DNA of 64,000 bases from Pseudoalteromonas sp. H105 (GTDB taxonomy: Bacteria > Pseudomonadota > Gammaproteobacteria > Enterobacterales > Alteromonadaceae): assembly GCF_001469215.1 (NCBI RefSeq), contig NZ_LOFH01000004.1, forward strand, positions 124,001-188,000, given 5' to 3'. The first letter of the stretch is position 1, and each line of letters starts with the position of its first letter. Below the pieces are notes generated by a model. That model was not told the origin of the DNA and did not search any database. It worked only from the letters and a program-made list of their open reading frames with translations. The position numbers were made by a program, and so were the translations under genes. This document shows positions 22 through 57,927 of this stretch, one piece after another.

Positions 22-52
22 AAAAGATGCGAGATTAAGCTCGCATTTTTTG
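22..52 (+). terminator. Rho-independent terminator of an upstream gene
   Basis: A 7-bp stem (27-33 with 40-46) with a 6-nt loop is followed by a T-rich run. It ends a plus-strand transcript that enters from outside the window and insulates mtnN. Confidence 0.8.
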
Positions 53-117
53 TTTGTTTTACCCTACTCTCATTTTTGCAGTATAATCATGCCATCTAAT
101 TCGAGGAATCAAAAAAT

Positions 118-825
118 ATGAATGTTGGTATTATTGGCGCAATGGAGCCAGAAGTTAAAATTTTGCGTGAAACAATGCAAAATCCGCAAACACTGACGAA
201 GGCAGGTTTTACCTTTTATACCGGTGAATTAGCAGGTAACACTGTCACATTAGTACAATCAGGTATTGGTAAGGTTGCATCAGCAATAGCAACAACATTA
301 TTGATTGATAATTTTAAACCTGATTGCGTCATTAATACGGGCTCTGCGGGTGGGTTTGATCCATCCTTGAGCGTCGGGGATGTAGTGATTTCATCACAAG
401 TGCGTCATCATGATGTAGATGTTACTGCGTTTGGTTATGAAATTGGACAAGTTCCACAAATGCCGGCTGGTTTCACAGCCCACCCTACACTAATTGAAGC
501 AGCTGAAAATAGCATCTCACAAATAAGCGAAGTAAAAACTTTGGTAGGTTTAATCTGTACGGGTGATTCGTTTATGTGCGATCCTATTCGCATTGATAAA
601 GCACGCGCAGACTTTCCAACTATGCTGGCAGTTGAAATGGAAGGCGCCGCCATTGCTCAAGTATGTCATTCATTAGAAACACCTTTTGTAGTTATTCGCT
701 CTATGTCAGATATTGCAGGAAAAGAGTCACCACAATCATTCGAAGAATACTTAGAAACAGCCTCTATAAACTCATCAAAAATGGTTGTGGCATTATTAGA
801 AAAACTAACAACGGTTAGTTTATAA
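118..825 (+). CDS. mtnN: 5'-methylthioadenosine/S-adenosylhomocysteine nucleosidase
   Basis: MtnN (Pfs) hydrolyses methylthioadenosine, S-adenosylhomocysteine and 5'-deoxyadenosine to adenine and the thioribose or ribosyl product. It works in the cytosol in methionine salvage and feeds the LuxS/AI-2 pathway. The 235-aa protein is the usual length. It opens with [13 protein letters not shown], which places the catalytic acid at Glu12. The AVEMEGAA motif gives the ribose-binding Met174-Glu175 pair, and Asp198 in RSMSDIAG is the purine-protonating residue. A GAGGA ribosome site lies about 10 nt before the ATG. A CobD/CbiB-like gene follows after one base, so the two are probably co-transcribed. 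Identification is secure. Confidence 0.97.
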
Positions 826-20431: not shown

Positions 20432-20593
20432 TATACCCAAGCCATCTCAATATGCAGAATTCAGCGTTTAAAAGCTGACTTATACTACGTCATTGATTTT
20501 GACAATAGAACCATCATTACCTGCAATCAATGCCTTGCCTAAATCGTTTTTGATTCCAACTGAAACTCGCATCTTGAGGTGGTCTGGGTATAT
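20432..20593 (-). repeat. Dispersed inverted-repeat element, short copy A
   Basis: This is one of three related elements. Read on the minus strand it matches copy C (55993-56255) through the first ~125 bp, then skips about 95 bp and resumes at the AACGCTGAATTCTGC block and right terminal repeat. The ends, starting TATACCCAGACCACCTCAAG and its complement, form terminal inverted repeats. It fills much of the sdhE-ygfZ intergenic region, between two divergent promoters. It encodes no transposase and behaves like a MITE or a structured-RNA repeat. Confidence 0.8.
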
Positions 20594-31395: not shown

Positions 31396-31650
31396 TACTC
31401 GAACTACCTCAAGGTATTGGTTGGAATTAAAAGCGATTTAGACAAAGCACTGATTGCAAATAATCGTGGTTTTCTTGTTGAAATAAACAATGCATGATAA
31501 ATCGCCATTTAACCATCCCTGAGCGTTTCACATGCACTTACTCTCATCGTTGTAACTTCTTAAAAATGACCGCCGTTGTCGCAAAATAACGCCTCGATAA
31601 TAAATATCTGTGAAGTGCTGAACTCTACATCTTGAGGTATGTTGAGTATA
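31396..31650 (+). repeat. Dispersed inverted-repeat element, long copy B
   Basis: This is a full-length but divergent relative of copy C, in the same orientation. Shared blocks are TTGGAATTAAAAGCGATTTA (31419-31440 region), CACTTACTCTCATCGTT (around 31534) and CTTGAGGTA at the right end. About 8-10 bp near the left terminal repeat are missing. Internal arms persist with compensating G-T wobble pairs (GCGTTTCAC with GTGAAGTGC). It lies between the mscS terminator and a Fur box. A 60-codon minus-strand reading frame inside it is not credible as a gene. Confidence 0.8.
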
Positions 31651-55857: not shown

Positions 55858-55992
55858 AATTTGCCCCCCAAAATAAATGATAATATGTCATTTTTTCTCC
55901 GTGTGTTTTATCTCGCATTAACGCACCACAAACAACTTATGGTGCGCGCCACTGCAAGCCCCAAGACACAACATGTGTCTCAGGTGACATTG

Positions 55993-56255
55993 ATACCCAA
56001 ACCACCTCAAGAAGCGAGTTTCAGTTGGAATTAAAAGCGATTTAGGCAAGGCATTGATTGCAAGTAATAGTGGTTCTATTGTTAAAATCAATAACGCAGT
56101 ATAAATCGCTTTTAAACCAACCCTTTGGGCGTTTCACAGGCACTTACTCTCATCGTTCTTACTTCTTAAAAGGGACTGCCATTCTTGCAAAGTAACGCCT
56201 TGATATTAAGCACCTATGAAACGCTGAATTCTGCTTCTTGAGGTAGTTTGGGTAT
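55993..56255 (+). repeat. Dispersed inverted-repeat element, long copy C (reference copy)
   Basis: This is the best-preserved of three copies. The ends 55993-56015 and 56233-56255 are 23-bp inverted repeats with one mismatch. Inside are two further inverted pairs: TTAAAAGCGATTTA with its exact complement (56031-56044 and 56102-56115), and GCGTTTCACAGG with CCTATGAAACGC (56129-56140 and 56213-56224). This permits a stem with two arms. The element ends one base before the betA stop codon. No ORF lies inside. It resembles a MITE or structured-RNA repeat. Confidence 0.85.
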
Positions 56256-56256
56256 T

Positions 56257-57927
56257 TTATATCTCCGAGCTACGCTGCTTTGTTTGCCATTGTGAATCGA
56301 TGGCAACCGCTGCATGCGATTTACTAAGTGGTGGCTTACCTAAAATTAAGTCAGCCGCTTTTTCTGCCACCATAATGGTTGGCGCATTTAAATTACCGTT
56401 TGGCACTGTAGGGAAAATAGATGAATCCACCACTCGTAGCCCTTCAATACCATGAACTTGTGTATTTGAGTTCACCACTGCCAGCTCATCTTCACCCATT
56501 TTGCATGAACATGACGGATGGTAAGCACTCTCAACCGCTTGACGGACAAACGCATCTATTTGCTCGTCGGTTTGAATATCTTTGCCCGGCTGAATTTCAT
56601 CATCGCGGTAGTCATCAAACGCGCTTTGCTCAATAATTTCACGGGTTAAACGTACGCACGCTCTAAATCCTTCAATATCGTCTTGATGCTGTAAGTAGTT
56701 AAACTGAATTTTTGGCGCAACTTTAGGATCTGCCGACTGTATTGTTACTGCTCCGCGGCTTTTAGGCTTGTTATGGCCTACATGCACTTGGAAACCATGT
56801 CCGTCAAAAGCACTTTTACCATCATAGCGAATCGCTGCGGGCAAAAAGTGATACTGAATATCAGGCCATTCAATGCCTGGTTTTGAGCGAATAAACGCAC
56901 ATGATTCAAAATGATTGGTTGCACCTAAGCCACTGCGATTCAATAACCAACGCGCACCAATGAGGCCTTTAGACACAAGCCCAAGTTTGCCGTTCAAGGT
57001 AATAGGTTGCTTGCACTTGTATTGAAAATAAAACTCTAAGTGATCTTGCAGGTTTTGCCCCACACCCGGTAGATGGTGTTTCACTTCAACGCCAGCAGCT
57101 GCAAGCGTTTCACTATCACCTATGCCTGAAAGCTGCAATAAGTGCGGCGACCCAATAGGCCCTGCACTTAACACCACATCTTTACTGGCAAATACTTGGT
57201 GTTTTTTACCATTGATGCTGTATTCAACACCCGTGGCTTTTTTACCTTCAAGTAAGACTTTCTCAGCCAACGCCCCGGTCACTACTTTAAGATTACGGCG
57301 CGCTTTAACTGGATCAAGATACTCACGACTTGCCGAGCTTCGCACGCCATCTTTTACAGTCATGTGCATTGGCCCAAAGCCTTCTTGCTGACCTGCATTG
57401 TAATCGTCAGTAACCGCATAACCTGCTTGCTGACCCGCATTAATAAAGGCTTTGTACAATGGATTAGCCATTTCATTACCGTTATTAACGCCCAGCGGGC
57501 CGTTACCGCCACGGTATTCATTTTTACCTAAATAAAAGGTTTCGGCTTTTTGAAAATACGGCAAGCATGATTGGTAATTCCAATTCTCGGCACCATGTTG
57601 TTGCCACTCGTCAAAATCTTTTGCGTGGCCGCGTACATACACCATGCCATTGATAGAAGATGAGCCACCTAATACTTTACCGCGTGGACAATGCATTTCG
57701 CGGTTATCTAAAAACGGTTCAGCTTGGGTATGAAACTGCCACGCGTATTTATCAGTGTTCATCGGAATAGACAGCGCCGTGGGCATTTTAATAAAAATGC
57801 TTTTATCACTGCCGCCCGTTTCTAATAGCAATACGCGATTACTGCTATCTTCTGATAATCGATTCGCCAGTACGCACCCAGCTGAGCCTGCACCAACTAT
57901 GATGTAATCATATGTTTGTGCACTCAT
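56257..57927 (-). CDS. betA: Choline dehydrogenase
   Basis: BetA oxidises choline to betaine aldehyde (and partly on to glycine betaine) at the membrane. The 556-aa GMC oxidoreductase starts [20 protein letters not shown], the FAD-binding fold, then [14 protein letters not shown], and ends with the active-site His in [12 protein letters not shown] and [18 protein letters not shown]. Its ATG overlaps the betB stop by one base. It is encoded with betB and betI, the classic choline-to-betaine operon. Repeat copy C follows immediately after its stop codon. Confidence 0.95.

Follow-up and report, generated by a model that had tools for sequence, protein, structure and literature searches.

A probable IS630-type miniature inverted-repeat element family with an elaborate covarying interior in marine Gammaproteobacteria

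A 64,000-nucleotide stretch of the genome of Pseudoalteromonas sp. H105 (positions 124,001 to 188,000 of contig NZ_LOFH01000004.1; hereafter the window) carries three copies, A, B and C, of a dispersed repeat whose full-length form, copy C, consists of terminal inverted repeats (TIRs) enclosing two arms (Table 1). The initial annotation, made from the sequence of the window, had described copy C as having paired TIRs and two arms, one of them with a perfect 14-bp pair; these features were confirmed, the 14-bp pair being the longest perfect internal pair of this copy. Copy B was said to keep its second arm by G-T pairing, as a reading by eye bears out, and copy A does lack most of this arm, as had been stated. 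The absence of an open reading frame (ORF) was likewise borne out, with no long ORF in any of six frames of 72 copies (longest stop-free run: median 47 aa, maximum 88 aa). With 263 bp, no transposase, TIRs, about 40 dispersed places and element-free orthologous sites, the repeat has the properties of a miniature inverted-repeat transposable element (MITE), and we regard it as a new family of IS630-type MITEs with an unusually elaborate, covarying interior. Specifically, it is very likely a non-autonomous MITE of the IS630/Tc1-mariner type whose separate interior fold was kept by selection across genera; the mobile-element part of this reading is well supported.

Table 1. Coordinates of the element, its parts and its copies (window positions unless another record or an alignment is named).
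Feature	Position	Strand	Remarks
Copy C, full-length 263-bp element	55993..56255	+	core TACCC...GGGTA 55994-56254
Left TIR, ATACCCAAACCACCTCAAGAAGC	55993..56015	+	22/23 paired with right end; like IS630-family ends
Right TIR	56233..56255	-	pairs with left TIR
Arm 1	56024..56121	+	stems with conserved internal-loop mismatches; bounds hand-transferred from alignment A2
Perfect 14-bp pair within arm 1	56031-56044 / 56102-56115		element positions 39-52 with 110-123
Small CC..GG hairpin between arms	56122..56129	+	consensus structure
Arm 2	56130..56223	+	variable covarying stems; bounds hand-transferred from alignment A2
Copy B, older near full-length copy	31396..31649	+	79% identity
Copy A, deletion derivative with TIRs and arm 1	20433..20591	-	lacks most of arm 2
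Unpaired opposing loop columns	57-113, 63-106, 64-105, 61-108, 72-97, 40-128		alignment A2; mostly G-A, C-A, A-G, A-A
P. shioyasakiensis, opposite-orientation copy	L343:3001-3263		= NZ_CP077771.1:702003-702265
P. shioyasakiensis, opposite-orientation copy	L346:3001-3263		= CP076682.1:139440-139702

The own genome (4.47 Mb, 26 contigs) gave 43 BLAST matches at about 40 places, among them 27 near full-length copies (query included) of 79–100% identity. The initial annotation had proposed a search of Pseudoalteromonas genomes; among 60 genomes of 25 genera, 28 in seven genera matched the element. Few candidates were scored per genome and the per-genome match counts are lower bounds. A pattern of the TIR occurred 52 times in the own genome and was present in 29 of the 60 genomes (own included in both genome counts), and the same pattern read backwards as a control occurred nowhere in all 60, which puts the matches beyond chance. 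Hosts among the 80 listed matches of an arm-1 pattern in named genomes were Colwellia, Pseudoalteromonas, Shewanella, Motilimonas, Thalassotalea, Psychromonas, unclassified Alteromonadaceae and one Endozoicomonas; genomes carrying the element include those of Pseudoalteromonas sp. NBT06-2 (G003), Pseudoalteromonas sp. FUC4 (G009), P. shioyasakiensis SDCH90 (G011) and Motilimonas eburnea YH6 (G046), and the plasmid-type records gave a match of 70% identity in Photobacterium sp. DA100. Carriage by phages was considered and rejected, with no match in the phage collection and a degenerate TIR pattern in none of the viral contigs. One viral contig holds the pattern of arm 1 (IMG/VR, L342:6796-6846).

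Across genomes, the length of the element peaks near 263 bp. With length left unfixed and ends TATACC, TIR pairs in the fetched loci peaked at 263–267 bp (69 of 146 distinct sequences), and strict TIR pairs (ends TACCC) measured 260–263 bp in 26 of 46 cases and 309–311 bp in 17. Many of the loci counted had been retrieved because they resemble the element, a bias towards a length of about 263 bp. The pattern of arm 1 was found in at least 112 stretches of named genomes; among the 101 places with enough flank, 91 lay inside a TIR pair, 71 of them 259–264 bp long, and the 72 at 255–272 bp (flanking TA counted) entered the counts. No larger element bounded by the same TIRs was seen in the own genome when the list of TIRs and four isolated hits were read by eye. 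In NBT06-2 the element is greatly expanded, with 278 TIR ends in addition to 20 DDE_3 matches, many of them fragments, and the form of about 310 bp in this strain (L110:1501-1814) carries 48 additional letters in arm 2, for which a further hairpin is predicted.

Evidence of movement comes from orthologous sites. The site of copy C is present without the element, its flanks no more than 28 bp apart, in ten of the genomes listed (G005, G018, G024, G029, G075, G100, G106, G109, G114 and G119), and it holds a full copy in the same orientation in G099 and a TIR-only remnant of about 36 bp in G074. Eight other sites of the own genome were sought in nine relatives and seven aligned; at L002, L003 and L005 the difference fits an insertion of TACCC...GGGTA plus 2 bp, and at L019 a TIR-only remnant stands at the orthologous site in G114. 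Strict TIR pairs are flanked by TA...TA in 42 of 46 cases, with a further preference for T/A outside, and some copies abut end to end, as if inserted into the TATA end of another. At the hisS/ispG site a copy in the same orientation is common to two strains that bear different Pseudoalteromonas sp. names, which suggests that some insertions are old.

In two strains of P. shioyasakiensis a 98.9% identical copy lies between the same genes (a TonB receptor gene and yegS) in opposite orientation (Table 1), with a difference of about 9 bp in one flank, by in-place inversion or by a second insertion at nearly the same spot. Outside the window, a copy at L017:1501-1763 (G000:C6:127325-127587) was read by eye as lying inside a helix-turn-helix regulator gene, and this stretch is present without the element in relatives.

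A partner transposase did not feature in the initial annotation; IS630-family elements of about 1.1 kb whose ends resemble those of the repeat occur in other families of the order, and degraded ones within the genus. Searches for DDE_3 (PF13358) at E 0.001 in 60 genomes of the genus, own included, gave matches in 22, and close relatives of the transposase of interest were present in two of 108 genomes of the genus at E 1e-20; across the order, 22 of 394 genomes had the transposase at E 1e-30. Ten of the 23 transposase loci examined, from eight genomes none of which belongs to this genus, showed an inverted-repeat pair starting TATACC or TATATACC, 1098–1120 bp apart, that encloses a stop-free frame. 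The right end of the insertion sequences (ISs) in G141 and G474, TATACCCAATCAACTTGAAGATGC, is identical to the 23-letter TIR of several Motilimonas (G046) copies, and across the ten loci the MITE consensus end, at both ends of the MITE, is closer to the right than to the left IS end. Within the genus, NBT06-2 holds a broken IS630-family gene (L136; NF033545 117 bits, DDE_3 122 bits) whose remnant ends in TATACCCAAGTTACTTCAAGTTGC, and a 266-bp copy of the MITE sits inside the 5' part of this gene, both flanks aligning with an uninterrupted relative in G016. Other degraded IS copies in these two genomes have TATACCCATCACACTTCAA-like repeats as ends, and transposase genes in both end beside an element-like TIR. 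The resemblance of the element's ends to those of the IS630 family points to the IS630 type.

Such ends could also belong to a plain internal-deletion derivative of an IS630 element whose arms are leftovers of the transposase region, and deletion derivatives of the MITE itself are common. The interior, however, gave only short chance-level matches with IS bodies, both for two interiors against four degraded bodies (best E 0.04) and for five interiors against ten stop-free loci (best E 0.07), it has no long reading frame, and the likeness of both MITE ends to one and the same IS end also speaks against such an origin. The deletion-derivative explanation was rejected on the ground that the similarity of the interior did not exceed chance-level words, and we consider it very improbable; the interior appears unlike a leftover of the IS bodies compared.

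The predicted fold of the full element is far more stable than those of shuffled sequences. Copy C folded as RNA at -96 kcal/mol compared with a shuffled mean of -55.6 (z -8.0) and with DNA parameters at z -8.1, 0 of 200 shuffles being as good in either case. In the predicted minimum-energy fold a closed TIR stem carries two large arms, to which the consensus fold of 30 copies adds a hairpin of two CC...GG pairs between the arms, the commonest pair at each of these two places being kept in 28 and 21 of the 30 copies, respectively. The consensus was derived from an alignment (A2) of 30 diverse copies from 16 genomes, which represent 30 of the 47 clusters (93% identity) formed from a set of 72 copies and leave out 16 of 22 own-genome clusters and one broken NBT06-2 copy (L130). 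The initial annotation had proposed that compensatory changes be counted; 58 of the 72 pairs of the RNAalifold consensus changed on both sides while staying paired. Paired cells amounted to 91.8%, against 76.3% in shuffled and 36–41% in slid controls, a measure on which the structure, being derived from the same alignment, is favoured over the slid controls. Both-sided cells numbered 331 against 100 shuffled and 47–70 slid, and the covariation score was 0.448 against 0.172 shuffled; none of 500 shuffles reached any of these values. Relatedness among the copies is lost in the shuffles; the gap is wide against either control. Among 141 unique copies, 63 of the 72 pairs showed both-sided changes and 92.4% of cells were paired. 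The helices thus covary in the manner expected of a structured RNA.

Palindromic DNA can mutate by hairpin-templated repair, and pairing of this kind might arise neutrally if such quasi-palindrome repair copied one side of an arm onto the other, compensatory changes accumulating in the process; nearly even wobble mismatches outside seven columns rich in G-T or A-C (G-T 204, A-C 197) fit this explanation. Repair should also erase loop mismatches, yet six opposing loop positions are unpaired in 30, 30, 30, 29, 27 and 29 of the 30 diverse copies (in the order of Table 1), and loop placement is constant across the alignment from 16 genomes. That loop mismatches persist while stems change argues against neutral hairpin correction, which we judge improbable, and suggests instead that a defined fold was selected. 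The earlier proposal, that folded DNA or RNA was the object of selection or mobility, finds support in the element-free orthologous sites, some of which fit a TA duplication, and in the cross-species covariation of the arms, and this covariation suggests that the fold was preserved by selection across genera of one order while its stem letters changed.

In the mechanism proposed here, an IS630-family transposase encoded elsewhere would recognise the ends of about 24 bp (TATACCCAA..CA.yTCAAGATGC) and move the element by cut and paste into TA-rich (TATA-like) sites, with duplication of TA; mobilisation in trans by such an enzyme is suggested by the matched ends, the flanks and the empty sites. 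The interior would form a separate folded module, its two arms closed by the TIR stem and its internal loops fixed, and the folded single strand may help full-length copies to persist, acting either as a transcript or, in replication or excision, as DNA. For ISY100 (IS630 family), mini-transposons with 30 bp of each end are reported to be as effective as the full element, and TA is duplicated (PMC2170065). Since the ISY100 ends suffice, ends and target can explain mobility, and the arms must pay in some other way or aid persistence.

Several observations weigh against the reading of the element as a mobilised MITE with a selected fold. The initial annotation had looked to empty sites and paired target duplications as signs of mobility; empty sites are present, and TA duplication is clean at three sites only, with +3 at L022, +0 at L017, no clean duplication at L010 and copy C, and a larger gap in one of five relatives at L005. 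A matching transposase was not found in the own genome (DDE_3 at E 0.001; order-wide search at E 1e-30), so the copies there are probably stranded. Tc1/mariner chemistry, to judge from the ISY100 mini-transposons, should not need arms, and TIR-only copies of 55–60 bp, present at about ten different sites, may move by themselves. These short copies fit either recurrent collapse, of which the L019 and copy-C sites may show cases in place, or armless movement, and they weaken the idea, which we did not retain, that arms are required for jumping. Counted apart, the few Shewanella (four) and Motilimonas (three) copies show both-sided changes in only two of the 72 pairs in each genus, so that covariation lies mainly between subfamilies, and the 72 pattern-found copies had part of their loop columns fixed by the search itself. 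Lastly, G-T to A-C counts by part favour no strand consistently (213:43 in arm 1, 71:165 in arm 2, 90:99 in the TIR).

If one strand were selected for its structure as RNA, G-T would be expected to exceed A-C on it by a wide margin. Overall, G-T numbered 394 and A-C 313, and in the pattern-found copies the ratio was 161:153. Decay after insertion should add equally to both, and the counts are compatible with RNA and give no consistent support to one strand. They bear on a different explanation, in which the interior would work as a structured RNA gene or untranslated-region element, with transcription starting at a promoter of its own or at that of a neighbour, and with the three-way junction and its conserved internal loops as the active form, the TIRs serving only to spread it. 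Strong covariation, loop positions conserved as non-canonical oppositions (G-A and A-G among them) and the excess of G-T over A-C in arm 1 are in keeping with it, as are two biases of gene context. In the orientation of the element, the left neighbour points away from 20 of the 27 own-genome copies and from 43 of the 66 at named loci (63 of 93 in total, p 0.0008). Divergent genes flank roughly one copy in three (12 of 27 own, 21 of 66 named; 33 of 93 pooled), as compared with 60 of the 282 background gaps in the named loci (Fisher p 0.008 pooled, 0.08 for named only). These counts come from crude ORF calling with a minimum of 70 or 100 aa, in which 66 of the 72 named-locus copies gave a context. 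The biases hint weakly at TATA-rich targets or at polarity. The opposite ratio in arm 2 and the even one in the TIR weigh against a transcribed RNA, neighbouring genes occur in all orientations, no promoter- or terminator-like site was found in 55900-56330, and Rfam gave no match above gathering score in the window, the only hits on the element below it being chance-level microRNA models. We think it rather unlikely that the interior is an RNA gene of this kind. Membership in a known RNA family was also considered and set aside, with nothing at gathering score and with 14 other sources giving only a flavin mononucleotide riboswitch and three transfer RNAs. A bolder version of the selected-fold MITE may be entertained tentatively, namely that the interior is a mobile module of RNA or single-stranded DNA, selected for its fold, with a defined three-way junction, non-canonical loops and a function of its own, and that it captured IS630 ends and spread through marine Gammaproteobacteria as a MITE.

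Among known systems, the nearest analogue appears to be RUP with IS630-Spn1, which is likewise a small intergenic repeat with IS630-like TIRs, a TA target and insertions into transposase genes (PMC2229807, PMC3049150), as the present element has one copy inside an IS630-family transposase gene. RUP differs in being 107 bp long and tightly folded with its TIRs paired (PMC2229807, PMC3049150), whereas the element described here, of about 263 bp, has two inner arms, is found in marine Gammaproteobacteria and shows covariation between genera. Correia/NEMIS and ERIC repeats share short TIR-bounded form, TA ends and foldable transcripts (PMC2229807); this element differs by its two conserved arms and fixed internal loops. 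CIR of Caulobacter and Brucella resembles it in having two arms and a linker and a phylogenetically conserved structure; among bacterial repeats CIR alone is said to possess arms and linkers, and it is described as without regular TIRs and of unclear mobility (PMC2229807). By contrast, the junction of the present element is closed by its TIRs, and IS630 elements resembling it at the ends have been identified. ISY100 and other IS630-Tc1-mariner ISs have 24-bp imperfect inverted repeats and duplicate TA (PMC2170065), but they encode a transposase and this element does not. In Thiomargarita, a TATA-ended MITE-like part is joined to a group I intron (PMC4853749), a loose precedent for structured cargo on IS630-like ends. 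No published description of this element family was found in a literature search that covered few subscription papers and is not proof of absence.

Bacterial MITEs are usually viewed as passive leftovers, with hairpins that simply result from the ends. In this family the ends point to the mover and the interior looks selected for shape across genera, which makes the function of a MITE fold testable; ready tests are offered by natural variants, among them copies without arms, a form carrying an additional arm and subfamilies with replaced stem letters. If the fold works, the element would represent a mobile structured RNA or DNA module matching no Rfam family at the curators' threshold.

In NBT06-2, an ORF with a long lysine-asparagine (KN) repeat adjoins the IS630 remnant (L136:2124-3170). 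In Shewanella basaltis and S. saliphila (L257 and L296), flank hits overlap as if the element or its surroundings were tandemly repeated.
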